From assembly GCA_028278645.1 (NCBI GenBank), contig JANQDZ010000023.1, positions 1 to 57,463 on the forward strand: a stretch of DNA of 57,463 nt, read 5' to 3'. A program made the translations under genes and the position numbers. Positions 9,161 through 45,655 of this stretch are shown piece by piece. Position 1 is the stretch's first letter; every line of letters begins with the position of its first letter. Below the pieces are notes generated by a model. The model ran no database searches and was not told the origin of the DNA. It saw only the letters and a program-made list of their open reading frames with translations. This DNA comes from Longimicrobiales bacterium (GTDB taxonomy: Bacteria; Gemmatimonadota; Gemmatimonadetes; Longimicrobiales; Gaopeijiaceae).

Positions 9161-9550
9161 GAGAAACCCACCGTTCTTGGAAGCGTCTCTGATCCACGGT
9201 GTCACCAAAAACGGCAACATCGCCGAAGCACACCGGGCAACTATTCTTGCTTTTGGGAGGGAGTGCCCAGGACACACTTTGTGTGCTCCGTCCGCCCTCC
9301 CCTCGTCTTAAACAGAGAGTTAAGCCGTTTGTCTAGATCCGAAGTGGCAGAAGCAAGCAGGCCGAGAATAATGGATCGGACAGGTCCACTTTCAGCGGGT
9401 CAGAACGGCACTCGCCTGGACGCAGATCCAGATCTAGCTGGGGGGAGATCCTATTTAGCGCGAAACCTATTCGTCTGTCAAGTTTTTACTGCGGAGGTGC
9501 TTTCTCAGTAAGCCGGTCTACCACGCGACCGCTGTCTCCAGACCAGACGT
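9161..9550. other. Non-coding stretch with no recognised gene
   Basis: No open frame here has believable codon use or a ribosome binding site. It probably carries the promoter of the leftward barrel gene. It ends where the IS3-type transposase remnant becomes readable. Confidence 0.5.
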
Positions 9551-9703
9551 CGATCTCGCGGAAACCCCTTCGACAACACCCAGGTCGAGAGCTTTTTCAA
9601 AACCCTGAAGCACGAAGAGCTCTTGGCAAACAACTACGCTACTGTGGCCGACGGCGTCGAGGGATTCACTCCAACCAGAGACATCCCTTTCCTCAGTTTC
9701 TGA
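9551..9703 (+). pseudogene. Remnant of an IS3-family transposase (C-terminal DDE region)
   Basis: The frame reads Arg-Ser-Arg-Gly-Asn-Pro-Phe-Asp-Asn-Thr-Gln-Val-Glu-Ser-Phe-Phe-Lys-Thr-Leu-Lys-His-Glu-Glu and continues with a Leu-Leu-Ala-Asn-Asn-Tyr helix. This matches the highly conserved end of the IS3-group integrase core (GNPYDNA…ESFFKTLKxE), including the catalytic Glu. There is no start codon, the rest of the catalytic domain is absent upstream, and after about 40 residues the frame diverges and stops at 9701-9703. No terminal repeats were found. This is a scar of an old insertion, not an active element. Confidence 0.8.
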
Positions 9704-9989
9704 CCAGGGTGGGTGGCTTCAGTTTCGCCGCGCATAGGCTCTCCCTGATACGAAGCCCTCCCCGTTCCTTCCGACTAAAAACTTTTGCCCTTGAAAATTT
9801 TTTCTTTCCAGTGAGTATTTCTTTGTCCGGTTCCCCCTGGATGGGAGCCAGGCCTCCAAAGCAAAAGCGCATCAATCTCTGAGGATCTCCCCGTCGGCTG
9901 GGGAGACAAGCTGAGCCTTTTCGGTGATTCCCCGAGGGTCAGGCACAATGCCGCCCTTGTATTTGTGTTCCGTTTTCAGGAGAGATGTT
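9704..9989. other. Non-coding leader region before the secreted-protein gene
   Basis: A stretch of 286 bases with an A/T-rich part at about 9775-9835. It probably contains the promoter of the gene at 9990; no clear -35/-10 pair could be fixed. Confidence 0.4.
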
Positions 9990-10754
9990 ATGACCAGGCA
10001 CCGTTTCGCCTTCCCCTTCCTCTTTATCATGGCCCTGGCTCTGCTGCCGGCTCAGACCCAGGGTCAGGACATGTCCCGATGGTGGCAGTTCAAGCCCAAA
10101 GCCGGGAGTGGGCCGGCCTTCCAAGAGGCCTTCCGGGCTCATGTGGAATACCGCAAGGAACTGGGCGATCCCTGGTCCTGGGCTGTCTACGAGACCGTTG
10201 TGGGAGAGGACTACGGGACTCTTCACGTCGGTTCTTTCAATCACACCTGGGCCGACTTCGACGCCTACGAGACCTGGGAGAACGGGGCCGCGGCCAGCGC
10301 CCACTTCCAGGCCACAGTGAGTCCCTTGGTGGAGGAGATGACCACCAATATCTCTCAGGCCAATAGGTCCTTCGAACGGTATTACCCGGACCCGGAGCAG
10401 GTTCCGAACTACGTCAACGTCACAACCTTCTATCTCAATCCGGGCAAGCAGGGGCAGTTCAACGAGAATGTCATGAAGTGGCACGAGGTCATCGAGGCCA
10501 ACAACATGCCCTACTACTATGCCTCGAACTTCCTGGCTGCCGGTGGGGAAGGCCCATCCTTCACCATCGCCCTTTTCGGAGAGGGCTATGCCAGCTTCGC
10601 CGATCCCGATCCCTCCATGGAGGCGGCGATGATGGAGCACTTCGGCGAGGAAGAAGCGATGGAGATCTTCACCGCTTTTGGTGAGTCGTTCCACTACTGG
10701 GAGAACGTCGTCGTTCGGTTCCGACCCGATCTCTCGCTGATCAACGAGATGTAG
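9990..10754 (+). CDS. Secreted protein of unknown function, paralogue of the gene at 4579
   Basis: A 254-residue product. The start ATG 9990 has AGGAGA just upstream and is followed by a textbook Sec signal (MTRHRFAFPFLFIMALALL, cleavage near Thr-Gln-Gly-Gln). Two similar halves can be seen, each with a strand-helix pattern containing WADFDAYE or FADPDP. The fold may be a ferredoxin-like dimeric barrel (tentative). It shares many segments with the product at 4579-5328, so the two arose by duplication, and both sit next to exported-protein genes. A strong intrinsic terminator follows 31 bp after the stop, which separates it from the padR unit. No catalytic motif or ligand site was recognised. 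Confidence 0.75.
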   Translation: MTRHRFAFPFLFIMALALLPAQTQGQDMSRWWQFKPKAGSGPAFQEAFRAHVEYRKELGDPWSWAVYETVVGEDYGTLHVGSFNHTWADFDAYETWENGAAASAHFQATVSPLVEEMTTNISQANRSFERYYPDPEQVPNYVNVTTFYLNPGKQGQFNENVMKWHEVIEANNMPYYYASNFLAAGGEGPSFTIALFGEGYASFADPDPSMEAAMMEHFGEEEAMEIFTAFGESFHYWENVVVRFRPDLSLINEM

Positions 10755-20000: not shown

Positions 20001-20420
20001 AAGAAGGAAGCTCCGGGCCTCTCCGAGGACCGGATCCGCGAGTGGTTGGACGAGTTCAAGGTCTGGGTAGAAGCTCCCGCGATTAGGAAGGCCTTGGGCC
20101 GGGGCCCCTACACGGACGGGGCCCGCGTGGAGCGGGAGCTACCGTTCGTCCAGCGCGTTCCCGACGGGATCCTCCAGGGTTACATCGACCGCCTCGTCGT
20201 GTGGGAGGAGGAAGGGAAGGTCACGGGCGCCGAGGTCCTGGATTTCAAGACGGACGTGGTCGATGCGTCGGACCCGGAAGCGATCGAGGCGAAGATCGAC
20301 TTCTATCGACCCCAGATCGATGCCTACAGGGAGGCCGTGGCCAACCGCTATGGGCTCGATGCTTCTGAGGTTTCGGGGAAGCTCCTGTTCCTGAGGCCTG
20401 GGTTGGTGCTGGAGGTTTAG
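17070..20420 (+). CDS. AddA-like UvrD-family helicase-nuclease
   Basis: A 1116-residue SF1 helicase with a C-terminal nuclease. Helicase motifs are clear: Walker A ASAGSGKT at residues 40-47, motif Ia STFTRKAAAE, motif II LLLDEFQDTSR, motif III VADPKQSIYGWRG, motif V MTIHQSKGLQFD and motif VI LYVAMTRTR. The C-terminus holds a second RecB-type nuclease (RGTVVHAWCE and VLDFKTD). With the upstream AddB-like gene this forms an AddAB-type repair complex that also degrades foreign linear DNA. A Gly/Ser-rich N-terminal tail of 30 residues precedes the helicase. Translation is coupled to the upstream gene by an ATGA overlap. Confidence 0.9.
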   Translation: MSGGGRTGDTSGGRPGSTSGAAYSRGTSYSGPLPRELVLASAGSGKTHHLSSRLIGLLAMEVPPETIWASTFTRKAAAEILERVLVRLAEAALDEGKAAKLAKEAWLDDNETKPPEDFLTRAKCGQLLADLVFSLHRANIGTLDSFFVQVAKTFAQELGVSPTWRMVEGPEEDRMRSEALESVLDQEDSAVMAELARELAKGEVRRGVHRHLLEQVEKLLETLREVAEGNEDAWKLRFAEVDPEGAPDSEQIQERCEELAVRFEATNPPANKDGKPNKGWAGELLRLAGVVRERDWTAFFAKGLGLKLVEQGMLAPAAEVTYSRHTPDAHLADILEAAAYLARLDLARDLRRQAGALERLAGWYRDAFEEAQKGRGEYRFGDITHLLRAKRITGEADPLYFRLDARVQHLLLDEFQDTSRAQWEVLDPLVEELLSGHQTERAAVVVADPKQSIYGWRGARPSLVRQVSETHHLTHDDLDLSWRSGPVILDTVGRVFSELHQNDVVAEMDDGPEVAQEWIKDIYPLDAAWKDRPGYAEIRVGPPGAGKGQVQPVFLKEAARFIGKLREREPRASIGVLVRTNKVVSYLIAALRELGIPASGEGGTPLTDAAPVNAILALLRMVDHPGDRLARYHVAKTPVGEVVEYAHHDDLAEANRLARKLRGRLMRDGYGVTLAEWAQALDPSCDPLERARLLQLVEMGFAFDGDRTLRPRDFVRLVEKQRVEDPSGAQIRVMTIHQSKGLQFDVVVLPHLYGSLEHSGGRDPVVPWRDTTTGRVTKVYPATNKTVRALLSELREAHNQARGFRLRDEFSGLYVAMTRTRYALHMLIPADGEKGEGTTKSAARILRHAFEPGKGADVADPVLWSRGDAEWFKTLEPDEFEATAGAGLGQEDALATGDPVRLREEEGDRNRNLARRSPSAMEGGDTLDLSAHLRLDLKNDARLRGTVVHAWCEAVEWIEDGFPGDGIPDDATLINAAKKEAPGLSEDRIREWLDEFKVWVEAPAIRKALGRGPYTDGARVERELPFVQRVPDGILQGYIDRLVVWEEEGKVTGAEVLDFKTDVVDASDPEAIEAKIDFYRPQIDAYREAVANRYGLDASEVSGKLLFLRPGLVLEV

Positions 20421-28551: not shown

Positions 28552-31500
28552 ATGCGCCTCGAAGAGCTGGTTGACCGGATCCGAAACACAGAGACACCGA
28601 GGACAGAAGCGACCCTGCAGGCCGATGTCCGGCAGCTCCTGCTCGAAGCGCCGATCGGGCTAGATGAATCCGATCTGCGGGAGGTGAACCTCGAGGCCCC
28701 GCTGGGGGATCGGCGCCGGATCGATATTGAAACCGGGACCTGCGTGATCGAAGTCAAAAAGCGTCTGCTGAACCCCCGGGTGGTGGCAGATGCCGTCGAC
28801 CAACTCCAGGGCTATTTGCAGGTGCGGCGCTCCCAGACGGGTCTTCGATACGTTGGAATCTTGACGGACGGTTTTCTCTGGATCTGCTATCACTTGAGGG
28901 GGGAAACAGCGGAGGAGGTAACCCGGCTCACCCTCAGCTCCGGAGTCGAGGGTGAAAGCTCACTTCTGATTTGGCTGGAAGGGGTTCTGGCGACTGCCCA
29001 GGACATCCCACCAACCCCAGAGAACATTGGTCGAAGACTCGGATCCGGAAGCAGTTCCCATCAGCTAGACAGGAAGAGTCTCGCCAGCCTCTACCTAGAC
29101 AATCGGTCGTTGCCCACGGTCGCTGCCAAGAGAAAACTCTGGGCTAGACTCCTTACCACCGCGTTGGGCACCAGTTTTGAGGATACCGATGACCTGTTCA
29201 TCGAGCACTCCCTCCTTGTGCTCTCTGCAGAAGTTATCGCCCACGCCGTCCTTGAGTTGGATCCAGCTCAGATTCTGCCAAAGAGGTTGGTCACCGGGGA
29301 GGTCTTCGACGAGGCCGGTGTCTATGGGGTCGTCGAGGCTGATTTTTTTGACTGGGTCGTAGAGGTGCCCGGGGGGGAGACTTGGCTTCGCACGCTCGCC
29401 AAGAGACTGAAGCGGTTCCGCTGGGAGGCAACAGAACACGATGTTCTGAAAGTGCTCTACGAGTCAGTCATTAACCCGGACACGAGGAAGAAGCTAGGAG
29501 AGTACTATACGCCGGATTGGTTGGCCGACCAGGTTGTGGATGAGGTCTTTGATGACCCGCTCAACCAGCGGTTGCTAGACCCTGCATGCGGGTCAGGGAC
29601 ATTCCTGTTCCAGGCCGTGCGGAAGTACCTCGCCGTTGCGGAAGATGAGGGCCTCTCAGTGTCTGAGGCTCTGGAGGGGGTAACTAGGCAGGTAATTGGG
29701 CTGGACCTTCATCCGGTAGCGGTGACTCTCGCCAGAGTGACGTACCTTCTCGCAATCGGACGATCACGAGTGGCAGGTGGGGAACGCGGTGCTCTGCGAA
29801 TCCCAGTGTACCTCGGCGACTCCCTGCAATGGCAATTCTCAGTCCCAAACCTCTGGACTGCAGGTACACTTTCCATCAAGACGGATTCGGGCCCTGACCT
29901 GTTTGATTCTGAGCTGCTATTCCCAGAGACCTTGTTGGCAGAGCCGCACACTTTTGATTCACTAGTGGAGGATCTGGCTCATGCGGCTGATGCCCGGGGG
30001 TCTGACGGCCCCCCGGATATGGAGGGGATCTTCGATCGTTTTGGTGTTTCGGAGGTCGATCGACCTGTTCTCAGAGATACTTTCGAAAAACTCTGCCACC
30101 TATGCAAGGAGGGCCGGGACCACATCTGGAGTTACTACGTCCGGAACCTCGCGCGTCCGACATGGCTCTCGAAGCCCGAAAACAGGGTCGACGTTTTGGT
30201 GGGGAACCCCCCGTGGCTGGCCTACCGAAATATGACGGTCGAAATGCAGGCAGCGTTTCGGGCTATGAGTTCTGATAGGGGCCTCTGGCAGGGCGCAGGA
30301 GTCGCACCTCACCAAGATCTGTCCGCACTGTTCGTGGCAAGGGCGATCGAGCTATACCTCCGCCCGGAGGGCGTTTTCGGGATGGTAGTGCCGAACGCTG
30401 CTCTAGATCGGGCGCAGTACGCCGGATTCAGAGCGGGGAAATTCGGGGACCATCCTTCTGGTCCTGTTTCGGTGACCTTTGGGCAGCCATGGGACCTACG
30501 CCGGATTCGGCCGCACTTCTTTCCCAGAGGGGCCGCTGTTGTGTTCGGGGAGCGGAGCGCACACCCGAATCGGATGCCCGAAACTGTGGAAGCGTGGAGT
30601 GGCAAACTGGGGAATCCCTATGCGGGTTGGGAGGCAGTCTCAACGACAGTAGTCAAAGAGCCCGCGGTGCTCTATCCGTCTACTTCCCTCACAACTTCCA
30701 AATACCGAGGGATGTTCAGCCAGGGTGCAGCCCTGTCGCCGAGGTGCCTCTTCGTCGTCGAACCAGACGAATCTGGGCCTCTCGGAGTACCGAAGGGTCA
30801 TCGACGGGTAAGGTCGTCACGAAGTGCCAATGAAAAGCCCCCGTGGAAGAACTTGCCCGATCGATCAGGAGTTGTCGAGGGGAGGTTCGTGCACGAGCTG
30901 GTAGCGGGGGAGGTCCTGGTCCCATACCGAACCTATCGAAAGATGGAGGTAGTCCTACCAGTCCTCGGAGGCGAGATCCTTGTGAGGGGGTCGAATCGGC
31001 TTGGACCACACCCTCGCCTCGGGAAGTGGTGGCGTGAGGCGGAGGCGATCTGGGAGGAACACAGGAGCAGCGACCGCCTCTCTCTTGCCGAACAGATGGA
31101 CTACCGCCAGAAGCTGTCGAAACAGTTGGAGCCGGTGACCCACAGGGTCATCTACTCCAAGTCTGGCATGCATATGGTGGCGGCTCGCCTGGAGCTCTCC
31201 AAGGCGGTGGTAAATGATTCCCTATATTGGGCGAGAGTTGGATCGGAGGATGAGGCTTTATACTTGTGTGCGATTTTGAACTCAAAAGCCCTCACGGATG
31301 CGGTTCGCCCCCTTATGTCTTACGGGAAAGACGAACGCCACTTTGACAAATATGTGTGGCAGTTGGGAATCCCTGAGTTCTCCCCAGCTTCACAAGTCCA
31401 TGAGGATCTAGCCCATCTTGGCAGAGAGATAGAACGTTTCGTAGCGGAACTCTCGATCCCAACGGAATCCTACTTCGTGACGGCTCGACAACGGGTGAGG

Positions 31501-31569
31501 TCTGAGATTTCCTCGCATCCTGCGGCTGCCAAGCTTGAGACTACTGTCTCGAAGATTCTCGCTAACTGA
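28552..31569 (+). CDS. Type IIG-like restriction enzyme / N6-adenine methyltransferase
   Basis: A 1005-residue single-chain protein with nuclease and methyltransferase parts. N-terminal PD-(D/E)XK site: D58 (RIDIE) and E67-V-K69 (VIEVKK). Methyltransferase: motif I DPACGSGTF near residue 343 and the catalytic NPPW motif near 550 (VLVGNPPW), typical of gamma-class enzymes that methylate adenine N6. The C-terminal ~350 residues should be the DNA-recognition part (TTSKYRGMF, then VTHRVIYSKSG, then SYGKDERHFDKYVW), as in type IIG and PglX-like enzymes. It should cut or modify foreign DNA using S-adenosylmethionine. No separate specificity or helicase gene is next to it. The target sequence cannot be predicted here. 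Confidence 0.85.
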   Translation: MRLEELVDRIRNTETPRTEATLQADVRQLLLEAPIGLDESDLREVNLEAPLGDRRRIDIETGTCVIEVKKRLLNPRVVADAVDQLQGYLQVRRSQTGLRYVGILTDGFLWICYHLRGETAEEVTRLTLSSGVEGESSLLIWLEGVLATAQDIPPTPENIGRRLGSGSSSHQLDRKSLASLYLDNRSLPTVAAKRKLWARLLTTALGTSFEDTDDLFIEHSLLVLSAEVIAHAVLELDPAQILPKRLVTGEVFDEAGVYGVVEADFFDWVVEVPGGETWLRTLAKRLKRFRWEATEHDVLKVLYESVINPDTRKKLGEYYTPDWLADQVVDEVFDDPLNQRLLDPACGSGTFLFQAVRKYLAVAEDEGLSVSEALEGVTRQVIGLDLHPVAVTLARVTYLLAIGRSRVAGGERGALRIPVYLGDSLQWQFSVPNLWTAGTLSIKTDSGPDLFDSELLFPETLLAEPHTFDSLVEDLAHAADARGSDGPPDMEGIFDRFGVSEVDRPVLRDTFEKLCHLCKEGRDHIWSYYVRNLARPTWLSKPENRVDVLVGNPPWLAYRNMTVEMQAAFRAMSSDRGLWQGAGVAPHQDLSALFVARAIELYLRPEGVFGMVVPNAALDRAQYAGFRAGKFGDHPSGPVSVTFGQPWDLRRIRPHFFPRGAAVVFGERSAHPNRMPETVEAWSGKLGNPYAGWEAVSTTVVKEPAVLYPSTSLTTSKYRGMFSQGAALSPRCLFVVEPDESGPLGVPKGHRRVRSSRSANEKPPWKNLPDRSGVVEGRFVHELVAGEVLVPYRTYRKMEVVLPVLGGEILVRGSNRLGPHPRLGKWWREAEAIWEEHRSSDRLSLAEQMDYRQKLSKQLEPVTHRVIYSKSGMHMVAARLELSKAVVNDSLYWARVGSEDEALYLCAILNSKALTDAVRPLMSYGKDERHFDKYVWQLGIPEFSPASQVHEDLAHLGREIERFVAELSIPTESYFVTARQRVRSEISSHPAAAKLETTVSKILAN

Positions 31570-31933: not shown

Positions 31934-32734
31934 GTGAGGAAAGCTGACCGTAAGACAGTGCTTCGTCCGTTCTTTGGGTTCTACGGGGGAAAGTGGCGGG
32001 ATACGCCCAGGCTTTACTCCGAACCGGAGTACGACGTCATTGTCGAACCGTTCGCTGGCTCAGCCGGGTACTCTCTCCGTTTTCCTGAGAACAAAGTGGT
32101 TCTTTGCGAACGGGATCCGGTCCTAGCGGGCCTCTGGAAATACCTCCTCGAGGTTGATGAAGGGGAGATCCTAGGTCTGCCAGATCTTGGGCCTGAGGAC
32201 TCCGTGGACGATCTGGACGTGCGTCCGGAGGCTCGGCACCTGATTGGCTTTTGGTTAAACCGCGGAGTATCCGCACCGCGCAAACGGCCATCAAAATGGA
32301 TGCGGTCTGGAATCCGGCCTGGGTCCTTTTGGGGTTCGAGGGTCCGCGAGACTATCGCTTCACAGTTGCCTCGCATCAGGCACTGGAAAATCCACCAGGT
32401 CACCTTCGAAGATTGTCCGGTGGAAGGCGAGGCCACCTGGTTCATTGATCCGCCATATCAGCTCACTGGGCACCACTACCGGTTCGGTTCCGGCCTGATC
32501 GACTACCCCGAGTTAGCTGCCTGGTGTCTGGAGAGAGAGGGCCAGGTCATGGTCTGTGAGACCGAGGGGGCGGATTGGCTGGATTTCCATCCCTTGCCGA
32601 GCACTAAGACCACGCGGCGAGGGCAGCGGTCCCAGGAGGTAATCTGGACCAACAATGGCCGAATGATCCCGGATGGTCTAATCATGGGAGAGGACACCGG
32701 ACTAGGGTTTCGGGATCGAGAGGAGGCCTCTTAG
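31934..32734 (+). CDS. D12-class (Dam-like) DNA N6-adenine methyltransferase
   Basis: A 266-residue enzyme starting at GTG 31934 behind GGAAGGA. The alpha-class order is seen: an N-terminal FGFYGGKWR segment (like the FxYxGGK of D12 enzymes), motif I VEPFAGSAGYS near residue 40, a target-recognition region, and the catalytic D172-P-P-Y175. It should transfer methyl groups to adenine in a short DNA site. It stands alone, without an attached nuclease, between the type IIG-like gene upstream and the convergent GHKL module, whose last gene ends only 2 bp away. It may protect self DNA from a neighbouring nuclease. Dam-like phage or island methylases look similar. Confidence 0.83.
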   Translation: MRKADRKTVLRPFFGFYGGKWRDTPRLYSEPEYDVIVEPFAGSAGYSLRFPENKVVLCERDPVLAGLWKYLLEVDEGEILGLPDLGPEDSVDDLDVRPEARHLIGFWLNRGVSAPRKRPSKWMRSGIRPGSFWGSRVRETIASQLPRIRHWKIHQVTFEDCPVEGEATWFIDPPYQLTGHHYRFGSGLIDYPELAAWCLEREGQVMVCETEGADWLDFHPLPSTKTTRRGQRSQEVIWTNNGRMIPDGLIMGEDTGLGFRDREEAS

Positions 32735-32736
32735 CC

Positions 32737-33435
32737 TCAGACACGCCCTCTAATAGTGGCGAGTTCTGTTGAGAAGCGCTCCTTCAAGTGTTCGTGGACT
32801 TTCCTCAGCAGATCGGCTGTTGACAGGGACAGGTTGCCTGCTCCCGTCCTGAGCTCGCTCGCACCGCTCTTCACGGATTCCTCCGCCGCCATGATTGCGT
32901 TCTCTACCTCGGCTAGTGCTCCCTCGAGTTCAATCCTTTTGCTGTGGGCAGTGATTCCCCAAAAGACACAGGCGTCGTGGAAGGTGGCTCGGTCAATCTC
33001 CCCTGATTGTTCTCGAAGGACTGCCCGGGATCGCAGCAGCCGCTCCAGCTTTCCGCGGATCTCCCTCGACATTGTTGCCTTTCCGCCAGAGAAGCCGGAG
33101 GAACTGGGTTGACCTGGTTCCTCTTCATTCAATTGGCGCCCGAGGGTTTGCCCTGACGGGGTCAGCTTGTAGAGCTTCGTGCCGACCTTCTTCAGGAATC
33201 CTCTTTTGCGGATGGGCTTCGAGCCCATCAACTCCGCGTATACCCGATTTGAATCGGGGTATCGAGGTAGTCCCCGGTCGTCATCGTGACCCCGTAGTCC
33301 GAAAGCTCGTGGGTACCTCCGCCATGCGGCGACAACGAGGTCCTCACCTGTGAGCGGTCGATCCTCTCCCTCACTCAGACCGTAGGCAACGATTAGGAGT
33401 TTCTCCCAGACGGGCCTTGTGGCTTTGGCACTCAT
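32737..33435 (-). CDS. Hypothetical winged-helix protein, third gene of the GHKL module
   Basis: A 232-residue protein. Residues about 8-100 read as a winged-helix domain (WEKLLIVAYGLSEG, LTGEDLVVAAWRRYP, GFLKKVGTKLYKLTPSG), the last part being a typical wing. After a Ser/Gly-rich linker comes a helical, probably coiled-coil half (MSREIRGKLERLLRSRAV, then a long Glu/Lys-rich helix to the end). It overlaps the GHKL ATPase stop by four bases (ATGA), so it is translated with it. It probably binds DNA or serves as the adaptor of the ATPase; no enzymatic motif was seen. The family is unrecognised. Confidence 0.65.
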   Translation of the reverse strand: MSAKATRPVWEKLLIVAYGLSEGEDRPLTGEDLVVAAWRRYPRAFGLRGHDDDRGLPRYPDSNRVYAELMGSKPIRKRGFLKKVGTKLYKLTPSGQTLGRQLNEEEPGQPSSSGFSGGKATMSREIRGKLERLLRSRAVLREQSGEIDRATFHDACVFWGITAHSKRIELEGALAEVENAIMAAEESVKSGASELRTGAGNLSLSTADLLRKVHEHLKERFSTELATIRGRV

Positions 33436-35741
33436 CTTCCCTCCGGTGGTGCCTCATTATCGATGATGAACGGGGCCAACTCCTCCGCAATAGCCGATTG
33501 AAGCTCAGGCAGCTTGTCTGACATCATGAGGAAAAACTCCTGTTTCGTCATGGCGCCATCGATCTGGGTGTCGTACGTAACCAGGATCTGTGTCATGACA
33601 TCCACGTATCTCTCGACGTGGTACATTCTCCACTCGCGCGACTCATACCCGAACCCAGCCTCTTTGCTGAGGTACATCTTTGCCAGGGGAGCGTCACTGT
33701 TGATCCACCAGATGTTTCGGTCGGAATCTTGGGGTCTTTGGATCACAGGCGGATCGTCAGAGCTGAAGAAGACGTAGTCCTTCGTTTCCGGGTCCTCGTC
33801 GACTTCACCTGAGACGAGAATTAAAGGGTATCCTCGGCCTCTTCCCCGTTTTGATCCTGAGCCGTCCTTGCCGGAACCACCTGAACCATCCTCGCCCGAT
33901 GCTTCCTCTACCACGATCCTCGCTGGGGTTTCGCAGACCACGCGGTCGTCTCCCGCAACCACCTCGGTCTCACCGGGGGTGATCCCGAAGACCAAACCAG
34001 CGGACCCCACCCTTGCGGTCGACGCGTTCCCTTCCGTCCAGATTAAGGCAACATCCTCGTAGACGTCTCCACAGGAGAGGGCACACTTTGCCCGAATCTG
34101 GGTCCGGCTACCGGCCGGTACCGTCACGGAATCAGGTTCTAGGGTGATCGACCGGATCCGAATCACCTCGATGGGGACCCTATTCGACTCGAGGGACCCG
34201 TCGATGGTTTCGGCATAGACCACAGTGGTGCCTGCAGAGAAGGAATTGATGAGCATCAGGTGGTCATCCACTACCGCGACGTTCGGATCCTCGGATACCC
34301 AGCGGTAAGGTGTTGCACGGATCTGCCTGCCGTGGGCGTCAAAGAAACGGATCCTTGGCCTGATCGCTACACCGAGGCCTAGACGGGGGTGGGACACGCT
34401 GACGTCAATTCGGGAGGGCTTGCCTGCTGGAAGCCGAGTCGTTGAAGTCCTTGCCCCTCCACCGCCGAACTGGCCGAGCATCAAGTCGCGGATGAATCGG
34501 TTCTTCCAGCGGTCCAGCGCCTCGTTCATACGGCTGAGCTCATTCCTCTCCTTTTTCGTATAGGCCGTTCTGTCCCGGCTCTCGAACTCCTCTGCGAATG
34601 CCTGGATCTCCTCGGCAATGAAGTAGTCCACCGCTCGGGTGAGAGGAGATTCGGCTAGTGCTCCTCGATGGTTTTGTTTGAACTCTTCGAGGCTCTCCAG
34701 TTCGCACTCACCGTAGATTTTGTCGCGGTAGCCAGAGACCACAGGGAACTCGAGCATTCCCCGGTACCCGATGAATCCGCCCGCAGGTGTCTTGTAGTTG
34801 ATCGTGTGTCGGGCCTTCTTTTTCCACCTCATGCTGGTCCTTGAGGTGCAAAGGATCAGGGTGCCCTGGGGGAGTGAGCCATCACCGATCGTGGATTCTT
34901 CCGTTCCAAAGACAGGGTCGGGCAGGGATTCCGGAATCTCCAAGACCTTTTCGGAACTGCCGGGAATTGGATCAACCGCGGTTGGCGACAGGGGATTCGC
35001 ATTCCGGACTTGTCGTCCGTTGTGCATCACGAAAACCTCGCAGAACTCTAGTGAGGTTAACATTTGGGGGTGGTCCTGCAGCTGCCCCAGAAGGTCCGTC
35101 ACCGGGATCTTTTTGCTCATGTTCTTTGGCCCCACACCCCTCACCAATGTGAACCCGGATGCCCTCGCCGCAGCCTCCTTTACAGCTTCAGGCAGTTTGG
35201 CGTAGGAGGCCCCTAAGGGGGTGAGGGCAGCGTCGAGATCCTGGATGAGATTGGGGACATCATAGTCTTTTCCCTCGACGTCGTCTGGCACATATCCGAA
35301 CTGGGTGGTTCCTCCACCCGTTCCATATCGGCATCCCTTCCCACCCCGATGGGTTTGGAGTAGAGCATATTCGGTGAACATCTGTGTCATGTAGCACTTC
35401 CCGCCATTCCCGTGGCCGCCTTGGACTGAAGCATCTGTGTCCTGTGCTGCTGCGTCTGGGTCCGCCCAATGGCGGAAGTACTCCTCGATGTGATGACTGG
35501 TCGTTCCGACTAGGTCGAGACAGGCGATGGAGGGTGGGCCGACCCTTGCTAGGTCACACGTGAAGAGCACTATCACCCTGTCTTCCGGGTTGAAGGTTCC
35601 CCTGCTGTAGGCGTCCGCAGAGTTCTTTACCCATTCTGGCAGCCCGTTTTCGTGAGACTGGAAGGGTTTGCAGATTAGGGCGATGGCCCCCGGGCCATGG
35701 ACTCTCTGTTCTGCGTCTGGGGTAAACCGGAATTCGGACAC
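33432..35741 (-). CDS. GHKL ATPase with Ig-like (Big_2-type) repeats
   Basis: A 769-residue protein, GTG start at 35741 behind AGAGAGG. N-terminal Bergerat-fold ATPase: N box E36-WVKNSADA (N40, D43), G1-like D76-LVG79, and G2 box GGHGNGGK at 108-115. A transducer-like middle region extends to about 430. Two Ig-like strands sets follow (RIRFFDAHGRQI … YRWVSEDPNVAVVD and SITLEPDSVTVPAGSRTQIRA … GITPGETEV), the pattern of bacterial Big_2 domains. A Gly/Ser/Lys-rich linker then leads to a C-terminal domain of about 140 residues (YPLILVSGEVDED). No signal peptide, so the Ig-like modules are inside the cell. MORC/MutL-like GHKL ATPases are known from restriction-associated operons. This one is flanked by two winged-helix genes. 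Confidence 0.75.
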   Translation of the reverse strand: MSEFRFTPDAEQRVHGPGAIALICKPFQSHENGLPEWVKNSADAYSRGTFNPEDRVIVLFTCDLARVGPPSIACLDLVGTTSHHIEEYFRHWADPDAAAQDTDASVQGGHGNGGKCYMTQMFTEYALLQTHRGGKGCRYGTGGGTTQFGYVPDDVEGKDYDVPNLIQDLDAALTPLGASYAKLPEAVKEAAARASGFTLVRGVGPKNMSKKIPVTDLLGQLQDHPQMLTSLEFCEVFVMHNGRQVRNANPLSPTAVDPIPGSSEKVLEIPESLPDPVFGTEESTIGDGSLPQGTLILCTSRTSMRWKKKARHTINYKTPAGGFIGYRGMLEFPVVSGYRDKIYGECELESLEEFKQNHRGALAESPLTRAVDYFIAEEIQAFAEEFESRDRTAYTKKERNELSRMNEALDRWKNRFIRDLMLGQFGGGGARTSTTRLPAGKPSRIDVSVSHPRLGLGVAIRPRIRFFDAHGRQIRATPYRWVSEDPNVAVVDDHLMLINSFSAGTTVVYAETIDGSLESNRVPIEVIRIRSITLEPDSVTVPAGSRTQIRAKCALSCGDVYEDVALIWTEGNASTARVGSAGLVFGITPGETEVVAGDDRVVCETPARIVVEEASGEDGSGGSGKDGSGSKRGRGRGYPLILVSGEVDEDPETKDYVFFSSDDPPVIQRPQDSDRNIWWINSDAPLAKMYLSKEAGFGYESREWRMYHVERYVDVMTQILVTYDTQIDGAMTKQEFFLMMSDKLPELQSAIAEELAPFIIDNEAPPEGR

Positions 35742-35752
35742 TTCGACCTCTC

Positions 35753-36358
35753 TTATTGTTCTTCCACTAGGCGATCAACGAGGGCTTCCCATGCTCGGCT
35801 GATGTCGTCTTTCAAGGTTTTTGGGGATTTGACTGTGTAACCCTTCCGCCCGTGACGTCGAAGGAAGCCTTCCTGTTTGAACCATCCAAGGACGAGGTAA
35901 AGCTGGTAACCGGGTATCCTTAAAGAATCTTGGTGCTGTCTGAGGTCGCTCATACCCTCCGCTTTTATGGGGCCTTCGTCGAGAGCTTGGAGCGCCAAGG
36001 CTCGATCTGCGATGGCTTCCAACGCGGCGCGAGGAGCTCGGTGCTCGTACGACCTCTCGTTCGAGGGTGAGCGGCCAATCTTGACTAGGTAGTCTCCCTC
36101 CCTGACGAACGAGGGCAGACCAACGCTGGTGGCCGATCTCCCTGGTTCGTTGGAGCTTCCAGGATCTTGGGTCTCAGATCCGGTCTGTCCCATTTCGGCT
36201 GTTCGGATCGGATCGATCTCGGCCAACTGCTTCGCGACTGAAAGGACCGCCGGGACCTCGTCGAACCGATGCTCCTTCATGGCTTGTTCTACCAACTGCC
36301 GTACGCTTCGCTCAGCCGTTCGGACCGCCTCGATCGCCTCTTCCAGAAGTCTCTCCAT
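35753..36358 (-). CDS. Hypothetical winged-helix protein, first gene of the GHKL module
   Basis: A 201-residue protein. Residues 1-50 form a helical, probably coiled-coil segment (LLEEAIEAVRTAERSVRQLVEQ). The middle is Ser/Gly-rich. The last ~100 residues look like a winged helix with an antirepressor-like wing (LVLGWFKQEGFLRRHGRKGYTVKSP). Its stop is 11 bp from the GTG of the GHKL ATPase, giving a compact three-gene leftward operon with the A/T-rich region upstream as its promoter. It may sense or recruit DNA for the ATPase, which is inference from context. The family is unrecognised. Confidence 0.65.
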   Translation of the reverse strand: MERLLEEAIEAVRTAERSVRQLVEQAMKEHRFDEVPAVLSVAKQLAEIDPIRTAEMGQTGSETQDPGSSNEPGRSATSVGLPSFVREGDYLVKIGRSPSNERSYEHRAPRAALEAIADRALALQALDEGPIKAEGMSDLRQHQDSLRIPGYQLYLVLGWFKQEGFLRRHGRKGYTVKSPKTLKDDISRAWEALVDRLVEEQ

Positions 36359-36700: not shown

Positions 36701-37645
36701 TTAGATCTTGGTGACCTTCTTGAGGATGGGACCTAGGGCACCAACCAAGCGGTCCATATTTTGGATGGATTGTTCCTGGATCTCAGGCCACTCCTCCGGC
36801 GGGGCCATAAGCCCACCACACGCGAACTCGGCCCTGACGCGACACGCTCTTCTTCCCTCAATCAGTTGCCAGTCAAGTGGGCCGCCGAATGTCTTCTCAG
36901 CTTTCAAACGGTCTTCACGCATGGCTTCGAGAATTCGTTCATTCTCGGCTGCGTCACCGGTATCGATATAGAGCTCCACTCCAGCTCTTGCTTTCTTCCA
37001 GATTAGATACACCCAGCTCACCCCCCCCCGCCCAGCACCCGACCCGAGCCAGCTATCCCTCGTAGGGGCCCTGTTTGCATGATGAAGGATGCCCATGGCC
37101 TTGGCGCGGTCAAGTAAACCTTCCCAGTACCGAAGACGGAGGAGGTGACGCTCAGCTAGTTCCTTCTTCTCTTGTCCGATAGCCTTTGCCTCTTCGGAGG
37201 GACCGGCGAGGACAGTGAACAGGGGAGCCGCGGCCGAATTGCCTATTTGGATTGCTTCGAGCCGAACGAGGAAGAAAGCCCTGTCTACAGGGGTGGACTC
37301 ATTCAACCAACTGATCGCCGTGACATGTTCCGGGCGGCCGTCCGTGACTATCCATATGGCGAACGTTGCTTCGAGGTTGGAAAAGTAGGTTACCAGCTTC
37401 CCCAGGTGGTCGTGGTTTGAGGGTTCTAGCTGGTTTTCGATGATGACCGGTTCCCCGGATTCCGTCTCTGCCACGAGGTCGACACGGAAAGATCCGACGC
37501 TCTTCTCGCGGTCGACTGGCTGAAGTGGGATTCCGACTGCCTCTGCCAAGGTTTCGAGATTCTCCTCCAGCCATACCGTGAATCCCCGCTCTTCATGGGC
37601 CCAGAGCTTGCGGACAGGCACCTTCTCGATTCGGCCGATTTCCAT
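36701..37645 (-). CDS. DUF4268-type PD-(D/E)XK nuclease-like protein with a coding G9 tract
   Basis: A 314-residue cytoplasmic protein, ATG 37645 behind GGGAGAGA. The N-terminal part is a restriction-endonuclease-like fold: V55-D56-LVAE, then VIIE70-N-Q72 (D … ExQ, the Lys of the usual ExK replaced by Gln as in some active members), then a helix with Tyr. The C-terminal half (WVYLIWKKARAGVELYIDTGD, FGGPLDWQ, RRACRV) matches DUF4268 as I remember it. Such proteins are common in defence islands. A run of nine C on the + strand (37021-37029, nine G in the coding sense) lies between the two domains at about residue 206. Slippage there would cut off the C-terminal domain. Confidence 0.72.
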   Translation of the reverse strand: MEIGRIEKVPVRKLWAHEERGFTVWLEENLETLAEAVGIPLQPVDREKSVGSFRVDLVAETESGEPVIIENQLEPSNHDHLGKLVTYFSNLEATFAIWIVTDGRPEHVTAISWLNESTPVDRAFFLVRLEAIQIGNSAAAPLFTVLAGPSEEAKAIGQEKKELAERHLLRLRYWEGLLDRAKAMGILHHANRAPTRDSWLGSGAGRGGVSWVYLIWKKARAGVELYIDTGDAAENERILEAMREDRLKAEKTFGGPLDWQLIEGRRACRVRAEFACGGLMAPPEEWPEIQEQSIQNMDRLVGALGPILKKVTKI

Positions 37646-38007: not shown

Positions 38008-38721
38008 TTATAAAGCCTCTATCACCCGCCTTAGCGCTTCCACGGAAAGAGGCGGATCGCGCCGGTGCAGCATGGCATGACAGTTTGGGCATACGGGAAC
38101 TAGGTCGGTGATGGGGTCGACCTGGTACCCGGCGCCGGTCCGATTCAGAGGTACGATGTGGTGGACATGGATGAACCCCTCGCCTATGTCCCCGTAGACC
38201 TCCTCGAACTGGAGGTCACAAGCCTTGCATGCCATCCCGTGATGGGCGATGCAGGCCTTTCGGGCTGCGGGATTGCGTTCGTAGGCGTTCACAAAAACCC
38301 GTCTGGACGCACCTTCCCAATACAGATCAGGGATCGGGATCTCGCCGGGCGCCTCTTGCACTAGTGCGGAGACTCGCCGCCGGTGTAGGGAATGCCCTCC
38401 GCTACAGCGCTCCACTTCATACCAGACCGGAGGAAGTGGGGGGTCCACCAGCACACACCCGCGTTTGATGTCGCACCGGATGTGTTTGAGATCCTGGTAG
38501 GTACTTGTTCCGCGTAGGCTGGCTGCCAGCTCGCGGATCGGAGCGTCCGGGTTGAACAGCCGTCGTTCGTACTCTTCGAACGGCAGGATACCCCGAGGAG
38601 CACGACGAAGCACTTCGAACGCGACGTACCCCCAAGTGTTTGGTCGTCGCGGGTTCTCTTCAAGCCAATGAGGCGCTACGGATAGCTGGCGCCCTTTCAA
38701 GTCCTTTCCCCGTCGTGCCAT
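38008..38721 (-). CDS. HNH endonuclease
   Basis: A 237-residue protein starting at ATG 38721 with GGAG 8 bases upstream (a GTG 15 bases earlier is in frame but sits on the ribosome site). The C-terminal HNH nuclease is clear: KACIAHHGMACKACDLQFEEVYG, then HVHHIVPL, then DLVPVCPNCHAMLHRR, with the paired Cys that hold structural zinc. This form is common in McrA-like and other restriction HNH enzymes. The N-terminal ~120 residues (NPRRPNTWGYVAFEVLRRAP) may recognise DNA. It may cut modified or foreign DNA. It lies beside the IS21 element, which is inserted just upstream and could separate it from a former promoter. Confidence 0.83.
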   Translation of the reverse strand: MARRGKDLKGRQLSVAPHWLEENPRRPNTWGYVAFEVLRRAPRGILPFEEYERRLFNPDAPIRELAASLRGTSTYQDLKHIRCDIKRGCVLVDPPLPPVWYEVERCSGGHSLHRRRVSALVQEAPGEIPIPDLYWEGASRRVFVNAYERNPAARKACIAHHGMACKACDLQFEEVYGDIGEGFIHVHHIVPLNRTGAGYQVDPITDLVPVCPNCHAMLHRRDPPLSVEALRRVIEAL

Positions 38722-38770
38722 GTCTGCGCTCCGCACCTGGTGTAGGAGATCACCCTAAAGTACCGACCTG

Positions 38771-41291: not shown

Positions 41292-42386
41292 TCAGACAGG
41301 TTCGTGGGGCATCTCGAGTATGTGGGCTTCAACCAGCGCGAAATCGGTATGTGGATACTCTACCCTATGACCCCCGAAGGGATCAATCACACCCTGTCGT
41401 CCTCTTACCAATGGGTGCCCCCTGTTCAAACCCGGACCGAGAACCCTCACCATCGACCAAGGAAGGGGGGCTGAGAGCCGAAATAGACTGGACAGCTTCG
41501 GGCAGTAGCCTAAGGCGTGCCCTGGGTCCGATGGAAACACAAAGTTAGTTGTGAGGAGATCAGCTCCATGGAAGGTGACTCGGCTGGAGAAGTACCTGAT
41601 TCCATCGAACTCCCGCGTTTCCACCAAATAGGCTGTTAAGAGTTGGGGGATAACATACTCCTCCACGAATGATCCGTCTGGATGGGTTCGTACAAATGAA
41701 CAAGCTGCGAGGAGCGGCCAGAGTGACGCGTGAGCAATAGCCAGATCAACCAGGGGACATTTCTTGCTTCCGTGGGCATTGATCAATGCGGCCATGAGCG
41801 CGGGGCGATGGCCAAGGTCCAGCAGGACCACAGCAGTGTCCGGTGCTAGTTTTAGAGACGACACCCAAAAGTCATCAAGTTCGGCCCGACCGAGCTCCTC
41901 CCAGCATGTATAGATCGACGAGCTGAGATAGAGCATTGGGACTCCTGGCATGCTGTATCTTTGGGGACCGACTCGATGTCGCATATCATAGGGGATATGG
42001 AAGACCTGGGATCGATCCAAGCCAGCATTCATAGAAGCCCTCCTTACCCGAAATAGCGGCCCGATTCCATCCTGATCCACAGGTTTTGACTTGAGTACGT
42101 TGAGGTGCTGATTAGCTGAGGCCATTGCACTATGCATAGCGTCCCGGGCAGTTCCCGGTTGCCCGGCCAGCGCCGCGGAATGCGCGGCGAGGAGGTGATG
42201 CCCTAGATCCCGGATGGCGGGGAGGTGGGACTTGAGGGTTGTAGAAGCGTAGTCCTGAGCGGTGAGCGATGCGACGGCTTCGCAATAGAGATTAGTTGCT
42301 GAAAGAAGGGATTCACCAAAGGGTATCCCTGTTCCGGCCCTGGGGAGGTCACAGAGTTCGTCATTTAGTAGGGTGATAGCGTCCAT
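41292..42386 (-). CDS. RES-domain protein (ADP-ribosyltransferase-like fold)
   Basis: A 364-residue protein. Residues about 120-330 match the RES domain as I recall it: LFRVRRA, FHIPYDMRHRVGPQRYSMPGVPMLYLSSSIYTCWEELG (the Arg, then the Tyr-Ser and Glu in the expected order), with a late SS/HGADLLTTNFVFP segment. RES toxins are ADP-ribosyltransferase-like enzymes that destroy NAD+ and normally pair with a Xre-type antitoxin. Here the domain carries an extra ~115-residue helical N-terminus (heptad-like Ala/Leu pattern), and no antitoxin gene is adjacent. It may be an abortive-infection effector. The ATG at 42386 has only a weak ribosome site. Confidence 0.68.
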   Translation of the reverse strand: MDAITLLNDELCDLPRAGTGIPFGESLLSATNLYCEAVASLTAQDYASTTLKSHLPAIRDLGHHLLAAHSAALAGQPGTARDAMHSAMASANQHLNVLKSKPVDQDGIGPLFRVRRASMNAGLDRSQVFHIPYDMRHRVGPQRYSMPGVPMLYLSSSIYTCWEELGRAELDDFWVSSLKLAPDTAVVLLDLGHRPALMAALINAHGSKKCPLVDLAIAHASLWPLLAACSFVRTHPDGSFVEEYVIPQLLTAYLVETREFDGIRYFSSRVTFHGADLLTTNFVFPSDPGHALGYCPKLSSLFRLSAPLPWSMVRVLGPGLNRGHPLVRGRQGVIDPFGGHRVEYPHTDFALVEAHILEMPHEPV

Positions 42387-43376: not shown

Positions 43377-44579
43377 ATGTTTAAGGTCATCCGCAATGAC
43401 GACGACTACAATGTCGCCCTTGAGACCATTGAGGCTCTTGTTGCGAAGGATCCCCCACGTGGCAGTGAGGAAGCTGATCGCCTAGAGGTTCTGGCAGTTC
43501 TCCTCGAGGAATACGAACAAACCAACTGGCACGAGACTCTTCCCTCCCCGGTTGAGGCGATTCGATTCCGAATGGAGCAAGCTGGTCTGAAGCAGCGAGA
43601 TCTGGTGCCTTACTTCGGTAGCGCAAGCAGGGTCTCTGAAGTGCTCTCGGGAAAACGCAATCTAACCCTCCAAATGATCCGGGCACTGACCGAGGGCCTC
43701 GGCATCCCGGCGCGGGTGTTGATCCAGGAAGAACCATCCGAAGAGACAATAGAGGAAGCGCCCTGGGCGAAGTTTCCCGTCAAGGAGATGGTACGGCGAA
43801 ACTGGATCTCAAACGTTGCTCTGCAATCGCCCGAGACCATGGTTGCGGCACTAAAGGCCTTCTTCGCACCGCTGGACCCGTCGATGGACCTCGCGGTCCT
43901 GTACCGAATGACTCGACACGTTCGGACGACTAGAAAGGCAGATGAGCCATCCCTGATTGCCTGGACAGCGAAAGTGCTCCTTTCCGCTGGCGAACAGAAC
44001 CTCGAGGCCAGTTTTAAACCGGGAAGCGTGACGCCGGAGCTTATGACGGAGCTGGTAAAGATCTCATGGGCCGACAACGCTCCGGCGTTGGCCCGTGAAT
44101 TCCTTGGTCGACACGGTATCGCTTTGGTGGTAGAGCCGCATTTCCCAGGAACCCACCTGGATGGGGCAGCTATCCTATCTGATCCAGACCGGCCAATCGT
44201 AGGCCTAACACTACGCTACGATCGCCTTGACAATTTCTGGTTCGTCCTCATGCACGAATTGGCTCACATCAGCCTTCATGGGCGTGGAGAAGCGGACGTG
44301 TTCTTTGATGACCTTGATGGAGATGCCGTCGAGGATATGGAGGATGAGGCCGACCAACTCGCCGGTGAAGTGCTCGTGCCGAGCACCGAATTCATCAAGA
44401 GTCCGGCCAGCAGACTTCGCACAGCGGGCGCGGCGGAAAACCTGGCTAGAAAGCTCGGGATCCACTCCGCCATTGTCGCCGGAAAGATGAGGCACTTTTT
44501 CAACTCTTATCGAATCCTCACGAAGCTAGTGGGGCAGGGTGAGGTCCGAAGATGCTTCCCAGAAGTGACCTGGCCTTAA
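43377..44579 (+). CDS. higA: HigA-type antitoxin fused to an ImmA/IrrE metallopeptidase domain
   Basis: A 400-residue protein, four times the usual antitoxin size. Residues 1-120 are a HigA antitoxin with a Xre helix-turn-helix (QAGLKQRDLVPYFGSASRVSEVLSGKRNLTLQMIRAL). Residues about 200-390 form an ImmA/IrrE zinc peptidase with H293-E-L-A-H297 and downstream acidic residues (EDEADQLAGEVLVP) giving the third ligand. Known ImmA/IrrE proteases cleave a paired Xre regulator when activated; here protease and regulator are one chain. Damage or phage sensing that leads to self-cleavage and toxin release is an attractive inference. The start is ATG 43377 behind AGGGGG, and the gene overlaps the following beta-protein frame region. 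Confidence 0.87.
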   Translation: MFKVIRNDDDYNVALETIEALVAKDPPRGSEEADRLEVLAVLLEEYEQTNWHETLPSPVEAIRFRMEQAGLKQRDLVPYFGSASRVSEVLSGKRNLTLQMIRALTEGLGIPARVLIQEEPSEETIEEAPWAKFPVKEMVRRNWISNVALQSPETMVAALKAFFAPLDPSMDLAVLYRMTRHVRTTRKADEPSLIAWTAKVLLSAGEQNLEASFKPGSVTPELMTELVKISWADNAPALAREFLGRHGIALVVEPHFPGTHLDGAAILSDPDRPIVGLTLRYDRLDNFWFVLMHELAHISLHGRGEADVFFDDLDGDAVEDMEDEADQLAGEVLVPSTEFIKSPASRLRTAGAAENLARKLGIHSAIVAGKMRHFFNSYRILTKLVGQGEVRRCFPEVTWP

Positions 44580-44593
44580 AGAAAGGCTATCGA

Positions 44594-45655
44594 ATGATAC
44601 CTCCATACTACGTACCGGTCTTGAGGTGGAAGAGGGCAGAACAAAAAGCCCTCGGAATGATAAACACTCCCGAGCGGGAGTATGTCATACCTCTCGTTGA
44701 ATTGGTTCCGCGGGATTACGAAGCCAAGAAGTCGAAGCCCGTTCCTACGATCCTGCAGGTCGCGGAGAAACAAGCCACTTCAATTACCCGGAACTGGCCT
44801 GACCGGCCGATGTTCGTTGATCCCTGGCTTCTCTCTGGTCGCCTTCGCCGAAACCCCAAAAACCATCCCCTTTCGCACCTCGGAGGTCTAGCCAAGAGCG
44901 CTAAGCTTCGGCTGATTCCGGTCGCGAATCTCCGCACGGCATCATCCGAGCTGGCAGTGCTAGCAAAGACCGCTGCAACACTCGGTCATGGGGGGGCCAT
45001 TCGGCTGAAACCCGCCGACCTGTGGGACGGCACCCTGGGTTCGCGAGTCAGGTCGCTCCTTCGCGCATTCGGTCTGGCCAGCACCGGAACCGATATCCTC
45101 ATCGATTACGAGATCACTGATCCTGGAGCCCCTACTATCGCCTCTGTGCTGAGAAAGCTGGGCGGAATGAAGCAGTGGCGGACGATTGCGGCCATCAGCG
45201 GAGCTTTCCCGAAAGATCTAACGGGTTTCACGCCTGGAGAGCACCTTCACCCACGAGTGGACCTAACTTGGTGGCGTTCTCAGAGAACGGGCGCTCAGCC
45301 TCCCTGCGCCTTTGGCGACTACGCGATCCAGCATCCGGTATTCGAGGAGCCGCCGGGAAGAGCCAACTTTTCAGCAAGTATCCGGTACGCGACCGAGGAG
45401 CACTGGGTGGTGATGCGTGGGGAGGGTGTGTTCAACGACGATGGGCCTGGTTTTGCCCAATGGCCCGCCAACGCTCAACTCCTCTGCGAACGGTCCGAGT
45501 TCTGCGGAGCCGAGTTTAGCTACGGTGATCAGTACATCAGCGAGATGGGCCATCAAGCGAAAACCACAGGAAATGCGGAAACCTGGCTCAGAGCGGGACT
45601 GAATCACCATTTGGTCTATACAACCCGCCAGCTCGCCAAGCTCTTCGAGTCTTGA
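44594..45655 (+). CDS. Beta-family protein (PF14350-like)
   Basis: A 353-residue protein. ATG 44594 is preferred (AAAGG upstream, and family members begin near YxPVLKWK); the frame extends back to 44552 inside higA. It follows the layout I recall for phage T4 beta protein relatives: a start strand YVPVLRWKRAEQKAL, then YVIPLVELVP, and later strands as in a TIM-like fold (FVDPWLL, LIPVANLRT, GAIRLKPADLW, DILIDYEI, TIAAISGAFPKDL). In bacteria these genes occur in defence neighbourhoods, often with sce7726-type partners. Here one lies convergent and overlaps by 68 bp. It follows the toxin-antitoxin pair closely, so it is probably in the same operon. Molecular function unknown. Confidence 0.7.
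   Translation: MIPPYYVPVLRWKRAEQKALGMINTPEREYVIPLVELVPRDYEAKKSKPVPTILQVAEKQATSITRNWPDRPMFVDPWLLSGRLRRNPKNHPLSHLGGLAKSAKLRLIPVANLRTASSELAVLAKTAATLGHGGAIRLKPADLWDGTLGSRVRSLLRAFGLASTGTDILIDYEITDPGAPTIASVLRKLGGMKQWRTIAAISGAFPKDLTGFTPGEHLHPRVDLTWWRSQRTGAQPPCAFGDYAIQHPVFEEPPGRANFSASIRYATEEHWVVMRGEGVFNDDGPGFAQWPANAQLLCERSEFCGAEFSYGDQYISEMGHQAKTTGNAETWLRAGLNHHLVYTTRQLAKLFES

Follow-up and report, generated by a model that had tools for sequence, protein, structure and literature searches.

The window, by which we mean the whole stretch of 57,463 nucleotides analysed here (contig JANQDZ010000023.1 of a Longimicrobiales bacterium), carries a minus-strand operon of three genes that centres on an ATPase of the GHKL class and abuts the gene of a DNA methyltransferase. 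A 201-amino-acid (aa) protein, a candidate winged helix (35753-36358), is followed after 11 bases by the 769-aa ATPase, which has a GTG start and two immunoglobulin (Ig)-like domains (33432-35741), and the ATPase gene overlaps by the four bases ATGA with that of a 232-aa winged-helix partner (32737-33435), hereafter wH2. A convergent plus-strand gene (31934-32734), encoding a D12-type DNA adenine methyltransferase, ends 2 bases from the wH2 gene. A first-pass annotation of the same DNA had described this arrangement, and coordinates and spacing agree with the sequence. Each of the three operon proteins was without a PADLOC 2.0.0 family at E ≤ 1, in keeping with that annotation's remark that it knew of no named system composed exactly like this, and without an NCBIfam model above cut-off. 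Big_2, in the ATPase, was the only Pfam family above cut-off among them, and a PHROGs scan matched only Ig domains of phage structural proteins, all in the 769-aa protein. Related loci are cited below by L numbers.

The GHKL-S5 ATPase and Its Ig-Like Domains

The 769-aa protein belongs to the GHKL-S5 ATPases (MORC/MutL/Hsp90 type), with MORC and Hsp90 tied as its nearest match in fold. Its AlphaFold model (predicted local distance difference test, pLDDT, 77.5; 13 sequences) found its best VIA-align match in Morc3 over residues 13-390 (Z 16.8, root-mean-square deviation 4.0, 289 aligned residues). Hsp90 (Z 16.2), MORC4 (15.8), MutL (14.7), and MORC2 (14.3) came next and cover almost the same residues; these matches support an S5/transducer domain behind the GHKL domain. 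The GHKL and S5 part spans residues 1-425 (34467-35741, minus strand) and holds the motif residues E36, N40, D76, and G109-K115. In all 20 aligned GHKL-S5 rows of the family, the window included, E36, K39, N40, D76, G79, G109, G111-K115, and R359 are invariant; the seven relatives aligned first are 22-50% identical to the window ATPase. The GHKL residues listed in the first-pass annotation therefore hold for E36, N40, D76, and the Gly-rich stretch but not for D43, which is kept in 18 of the 20 rows and so is not invariant. That annotation had also assigned the ATPase to the GHKL class known from restriction-modification neighbourhoods, and a profile-profile comparison bears this out: against eight GHKL proteins found with the NF050001 model (BbrUII/HgiDII), three of them above its cut-off, the probability was 96.5 and E 1e-9 over 341 columns, while none of nine decoys did better than E 0.085 (the reversed reference; eight shuffled references gave E 0.31-0.91).

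Behind the ATPase head, the model has beta-rich structure at about residues 443-612, read as two Ig-like domains. Two Big_2-like repeats had been proposed for this region. The second (residues ~529-612; 33906-34157) is recognised both by the model and by Pfam (PF02368, 24.9 bits against a cut-off of 22.8, E 2e-5, residues 530-600), which gave a single match above cut-off, and the first (~443-528; 34158-34415) by model and structure only, a segment of Leptospira LigA being the first Foldseek match to the Ig region as a whole (residues 439-615). By sequence, the region matches phage tail and head proteins with Ig domains. A Gly/Ser-rich linker, correctly anticipated from the first, follows at about 613-637 (33831-33905), with pLDDT below 50 over residues 615-637, and leads into a conserved C-terminal domain (~638-769; 33435-33830). 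The latter has conserved W, N, P, and R positions, and 8 of 10 rows keep D650 and E746; neither a K nor an H is conserved in these 10 rows, nor is a D..ExK set, and Pfam gave no nuclease match in the ATPase. Identity of the window protein to its relatives in L006, L007, L008, L009, and L013 is 49-55% in the first Ig domain, 54-56% in the GHKL part, and 37-51% in the second Ig domain; the first Ig domain has therefore changed about as little as the ATPase head, a pattern that suggests a structural role for it.

Four relatives (L047, L078, L079, and L080) have no Ig domains and retain the GHKL-S5 part and the C-terminal domain. They split from the other 16 rows at 100/100 support, although the root is not known and L080 is a long branch. 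The ATPase of L077 also lacks Ig domains, through an early end at 382 aa. Big_2 domains raised the possibility of a surface or secreted protein, which was rejected: the highest 19-residue Kyte-Doolittle mean is 1.45, and the ATPase motifs and methylase context point to the cytosol.

The Winged-Helix Partner

wH2 lies beside the ATPase in every one of the 18 assessable loci among the 21 with an ATPase, the window included (L048 and L049, near copies, are both counted; L008, L011, and L050, where the contig or record ends inside the ATPase, are not). It directly follows the ATPase in the 14 loci of the Ig clade and directly precedes it in the four Ig-less loci L047, L078, L079, and L080, whose partners were found at E 3.5e-13 or better with a profile built without that of L047. 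The wH2 model (pLDDT 84) has an N-terminal winged helix, with fold matches to winged-helix proteins of Z 8.2-10.5 over residues 3-114 (SSV1 F-93, Z 10.5), and a C-terminal half that is helical in the model, where a coiled coil had been annotated. A likeness to MukF/kleisin (Foldseek E 3e-3; Z 9.4 over the winged helix only) lies close to that of many winged helix-turn-helix proteins and was not used. The wH2 domain is not private to the module, because a wH2-like winged-helix domain (E 2.7e-13), possibly a decoy or regulator, is also encoded at 9776-10306 of L055, a phage contig that lacks the ATPase.

Two winged-helix partners had been claimed in the first-pass annotation. The 232-aa wH2 is upheld by model and fold, but the 201-aa protein has no supporting family match (none above cut-off in Pfam or NCBIfam, none in PADLOC or PHROGs). 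The gene in its place differs among loci: L010 has a protein with a coiled coil and a HARE-HTH domain (PF05066, E 3.7e-8), L045 an HTH_17 protein, L012 a YhcG PDDEXK gene, and L014 a 75-aa protein with relatives in L048, L049, and L050. PF05066 gave no match at E ≤ 1 in the window 201-aa protein, and BLASTP found nothing between that protein and the HARE-HTH protein of L010. The only relative found is a remnant in L007 (9536-10014), beside a fragment that by eye resembles the start of another GHKL protein, and no relative was found in viral contigs by a single-protein query that reaches close relatives only; two winged-helix partners as a conserved unit were accordingly rejected.

Methyltransferases Beside the ATPase-wH2 Pair

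The METHYLTRANSFERASE slot, which lies 3′ of the pair in the Ig clade and 3′ of the ATPase in the Ig-less loci, holds a DNA methyltransferase, adjacent or with one gene in between, in 10 of the 15 loci that could be assessed (the window, L009, L010, L012, L046, L047, L048, L076, L077, and L078). Outside this count are L008, L011, and L050, as well as L006 and L013, where the DNA behind the pair is too short, and L049 was merged with its near copy L048; the ATPase genes of L077 (ending at 382 aa), L012 (split by an IS630-like open reading frame, ORF), and L013 (frame breaks near the end) are imperfect. The enzyme is of the N6_N4 class in seven loci (L009, L010, L012, L046, L048, L076, and L077), of the C5 class in two (fused to Vsr in L047, beside Vsr in L078), and of the D12 class in the window only, so that one kind of ATPase-wH2 pair goes with marking enzymes of three predicted classes. 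The window D12 enzyme matches PADLOC MTase_II (E 1.9e-33) and has a DPPY motif, with a Pfam D12 score of 17.3 bits, below the cut-off of 22. We take the TSPPF/TSPPY motif of the N6_N4 enzymes to indicate N4-cytosine methylation and DPPY in D12 to indicate N6-adenine methylation.

This association exceeds what genome density predicts. Nine genomes hold 68 PF01555 (N6_N4) matches, fragments included, in about 38 Mb, from which some 0.08 N6_N4 methylases would be expected within 2.5 kb of nine loci; five were observed. In a tree with 17 control methylases, picked as strong matches from the genome-wide PF01555 list, the seven N6_N4 methylases of the module, that of L014 (4 kb upstream of the module and therefore not among the ten loci counted above), and 2 of the 17 controls form one branch of ten rows (100/99) with two groups inside, and the 15 other controls fall outside it. 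One of the two included controls (L113) has no PD-(D/E)XK-type neighbour. Next to the other (L114), at a distance of 250 bases, is an ORF that weakly matches PD-(D/E)XK (E 0.0012, below cut-off), and the ATPase-wH2 pair may therefore stand where an endonuclease would; the two L114 genes (8074-10089) are perhaps an ordinary type II restriction-modification pair.

The first-pass annotation had proposed a self-contained system of the three operon genes, protected or primed by the D12 enzyme as a neighbour. This is not supported in its original form, since ATPase, wH2, and methyltransferase recur together and the 201-aa gene recurs only as the L007 remnant. For the same reason we prefer to count the methyltransferase, rightly singled out and now found to be recurrent, as a member of the module and not as a protecting neighbour.

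Distribution and Mobility

Relatives of the ATPase occur in eight lineages (KSB1, Planctomycetota, Sedimentisphaerales, Ignavibacteriales, Acidobacteria, Chloroflexi, Bipolaricaulota, and Omnitrophota), with best segments 36-49% identical, and further in an Ensifer plasmid typed as conjugative (L014), six viral contigs, and five more sampled genomes. The family is rare and patchy in sampled genomes: with the centre genome excluded, relatives were found in 3/249, 1/246, 0/293, 1/250, 0/254, and 0/81 genomes (the last sample also gave one marginal, uncounted match, E 5e-4, at model positions 315-419). A housekeeping ATPase, the outcome that the first-pass annotation had named as telling against its proposal, was rejected on this distribution. 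Among 394 other genomes of its own phylum, a full-length profile gave only Ig-region rows among the matches listed, a weak negative with at most two candidates scored per genome.

Several copies lie on or near mobile DNA. A plasmid search returned one record, in which 92% of the ATPase was matched at 24% identity. In L046 the module and its methyltransferase sit between phage head genes (one neighbour matches a portal protein at E 1.3e-36, and across the module there is a weaker match to a head protein); the L048 copy is about 3 kb from phage tail genes. A search of phage records gave 14 matches, all to the Ig part only, and these were not accepted as evidence of phage spread. In L012, the ATPase gene is interrupted, at the linker that precedes the Ig domains, by an ORF (3520-4593) that by eye resembles an IS630-like transposase.

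A Probable Restriction-Modification Module and Its Alternatives

We read the methyltransferase, the GHKL ATPase, and wH2 as a defence module of the restriction-modification type in which the ATPase-wH2 pair would be the restriction arm, an assignment that we consider probable, if only modestly so. Its basis is the intact GHKL and S5 motifs, the constant wH2, the recurrent adjacent methyltransferase, the conserved pair's freedom from any recognisable nuclease, and the patchy spread, which takes in phage contigs and a plasmid typed as conjugative; the place of the window copy in a defence island also speaks for it. What we infer beyond these observations is the role in defence, the sensing of methylation by wH2, the closure of a clamp, and the fate of the DNA. 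The methyltransferase (D12 in the window) would mark host DNA, and wH2 would bind DNA and help to distinguish sites that carry the mark from those that do not. With ATP, the ATPase would form dimers via its GHKL heads and shut like a clamp on incoming DNA that is unmethylated; the Ig-like pair and the C-terminal domain would supply the arms of this clamp. DNA caught in this way might be blocked or compacted, or a nuclease might take it over. Closure around unmethylated DNA is proposed by analogy with MutL and MORC, and C. elegans MORC-1 is described as topologically entrapping and condensing DNA (PMC8277788). Winged helices are likewise described as readers of adenine methylation in type IV enzymes (PMC11037411), which by analogy makes wH2 a fair candidate for the methylation discriminator. 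The gene set may possibly be a putative sensor of nucleic acids.

Several observations weigh against this assignment. No methyltransferase was seen, by eye and in scans, near the pair in 4 of the 15 assessable loci (L007, L045, L079, and L080); the window enzyme is of another class than that of all relatives seen, and five of its viral relatives (L091-L095) have no ATPase in the contig DNA examined. The methyltransferase is also often on the opposite strand, so that co-regulation is not shown. A phage-recognising surface would be expected to change fast, yet conservation in the first Ig domain equals that in the ATPase head (it is lower in the second). By Pfam, five loci have VapC-type PIN-domain genes upstream of the module, immediately so in L009, L013, L076, and L080 and with one gene between in L079, and part of the clustering may therefore be hitch-hiking in islands. 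Finally, nuclease-family genes of differing kinds lie near 6 of the 15 assessable loci, which weakens any nuclease-free version of the scheme.

These nucleases bear most directly on the strongest alternative, that of nuclease-dependent restriction, in which the ATPase and wH2 recognise, move on, or license DNA and a separate, locus-specific nuclease cuts it (in the window, the HNH protein or the DUF4268/PDC-S11 protein). The six loci are the window (HNH protein, 38008-38736), L009 (two HNH genes, one similar to phosphorothioate-dependent restriction enzymes but below the model's cut-off), L012 (E 5.5e-63 for the YhcG PDDEXK gene, which lies just upstream of the ATPase gene), L047 and L078 (Vsr), and L077 (a PLD-like gene); cutting by a separate enzyme is thus possible, and MORC/paraMORC operons are described as usually containing nucleases (PMC2292703). 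However, no nuclease kind is common to the loci apart from the two Vsr cases, none was seen by eye beside the module in L010, L046, L048, or L076, and in the window a gap of 342 bases separates the PDC-S11 gene (36701-37645) from the operon. We regard this alternative as unlikely, though it deserves serious attention.

Its counterpart is restriction that needs no nuclease, a more specific form of the module proposed above. Here an ATP clamp of MORC-like type, with Ig arms in the cytosol and a winged helix that reads methylation, would entrap and silence DNA without the mark of an exchangeable methyltransferase, one effector serving with m4C-, m6A-, or m5C-type methylases, as a bacterial counterpart of eukaryotic MORC/HUSH-type silencing. 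We put this forward tentatively, as rather doubtful in so specific a form.

A distinctly less probable explanation is that the ATPase and wH2 form a methylation-linked silencing or maintenance factor of plasmids, prophages, or islands, acting on the DNA organisation or transcription of the element and not in phage defence. Winged helices are mostly regulators, and copies of the module are carried by phage contigs and by a plasmid that was typed as conjugative; five loci have PIN-domain genes upstream, and L079 and L080 have sigma-region-4 proteins beside the pair, that of L080 carrying a HARE-HTH domain. Yet a methyltransferase that recurs while its class changes is easier to reconcile with self/non-self marking, and the window copy lies inside a defence island. 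That the window's three genes act as a system of their own without D12, whose position would be coincidental, is improbable: although D12 relatives stand without the ATPase in the DNA examined of five viral contigs and the window is the only locus in which a D12 enzyme accompanies the ATPase, a methyltransferase fills the same 3′ slot in 9 of the 14 other assessable loci, and the most variable part is the upstream gene, not the methyltransferase.

Relationship to Described Systems

That GHKL-S5 ATPases occur in restriction-modification operons is known already: the gene neighbourhoods of prokaryotic MORC and paraMORC ATPases tied them to restriction-modification, and eukaryotic MORC proteins were proposed to derive from them (Iyer, Abhiman and Aravind, 2008; PMC2292703). 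The window family resembles paraMORC1-5 and MORC, as described there, in its N-terminal GHKL and S5 domains, its sporadic occurrence over distant phyla, and the DNA methylases, Vsr, and HNH genes nearby. It differs in its constant winged-helix partner and, in most members, its Ig-like repeats, neither of which is named in that description as far as it is available to us, and no superfamily II (SFII) helicase was noticed by eye beside it. The MORC S5 motif as printed in that paper (GhXhhpXXRhl) was absent from all 20 family rows and from all 8 BbrUII-type rows, in a run without a true MORC sequence as positive control. Of the paraMORC features, no ExxxH column pair (paraMORC2) is conserved at 70% in the GHKL-S5 part, and Pfam found no TIR domain (paraMORC4) in the 769-aa protein. 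The comparison with paraMORC1-5 was made by description, not by sequence, and the window family may be one of them.

Other systems share single traits with the module. BbrUII/HgiDII, a restriction enzyme by the name of its family (NF050001), is linked to the window family by distant GHKL and S5 profile homology; hmmscan with NF050001 gave no match to the window ATPase and E 0.097 to that of L078. The three sampled members above cut-off end by eye in a PD-(D/E)xK-like stretch, whereas the window family has no such conserved set. VcSduA, a GHKL-Shedu protein of the paraMORC3 type, likewise has a GHKL ATPase proposed to control an antiphage effector, with a requirement for the ATPase residue E27; it is a single protein with a C-terminal DUF4263 nuclease, and its published account, in the parts consulted, does not describe a methyltransferase or winged-helix partner (PMC12137116). 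BREX is described as sharing self marking by a methyltransferase, an intracellular Ig-like beta-sandwich (in PglZ), and a block of phage DNA replication (PMC12839542; PMC13326643). However, none of the three window proteins matches a PADLOC BREX model, and the Ig-like domain of BREX is described as fast-evolving (PMC12839542), in contrast to the conserved first Ig domain of the window family. HEF_HK/Response_reg_2 elements, too, are described as a GHKL ATPase with a partner gene near type II restriction-modification systems and C5 methylases (PMC8011034); HEF_HK gave no match in Pfam scans, and its partner is a receiver where that of the window family is a winged helix.

A literature search, judged mostly from titles and abstracts and with most subscription papers outside its coverage, found no paper naming this gene set. 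What appears to be new is a family with a constant winged-helix partner, Ig-like domains, and an exchanged methyltransferase class, a variant of the MORC/paraMORC restriction-modification theme; the set is rare in bacteria and looks like an undescribed kind of self/non-self DNA defence. To our knowledge, the role of a prokaryotic MORC/paraMORC ATPase in restriction-modification is largely untested. With one ATPase, one constant winged-helix partner, an exchangeable methyltransferase, and no shared nuclease, the family offers a small, clean case in which to ask whether a MORC-type clamp alone excludes unmethylated DNA. Ig domains, moreover, are otherwise typical of the surface proteins of bacteria and the structural proteins of phages; in this family they would belong to a cytosolic DNA-handling machine.

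Neighbouring Genes

The VapC-type PIN genes, for which L009 (9301-9977) and L013 (9358-9888) may serve as examples, occur in both clades and are perhaps an addiction element. A MazE-type antitoxin gene accompanies the PIN gene in L009 and L076 by Pfam and in L079 and L080 by eye; none was noted in L013. The sigma-70 region 4 proteins of the Ig-less loci L079 (10988-13435) and L080 (7216-8250) also carry an RNA polymerase alpha C-terminal domain or a HARE-HTH domain. In L045 (13054-16878) the pair is followed, after a 488-aa protein of no Pfam family, by an AAA gene that is McrB-like by eye and a possible McrC-like gene.

Judged by its gene content, the window is a defence island, with genes predicted to encode PD-Lambda-2 B and C, a type IIG enzyme, PDC-S11, the HNH protein, and a UvrD/GajB-like helicase. 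The module is flanked by the type IIG restriction-methylase (28552-31569) and the PDC-S11 (DUF4268) candidate defence protein. Three large plus-strand ORFs start from 11337, of which the first two had no PADLOC match at E 1e-4 and the third (17070-20420) encodes a 1116-aa protein with the UvrD/GajB-like helicase match (E 1.2e-25). PD-Lambda-2 B and C (43377-45655) matched their PADLOC models at E 7.5e-144 and 4.8e-41, and between them and an IS21-type istAB pair, recognised by eye, lies a gene for a RES-domain protein (41292-42386; Pfam E 1.8e-7).

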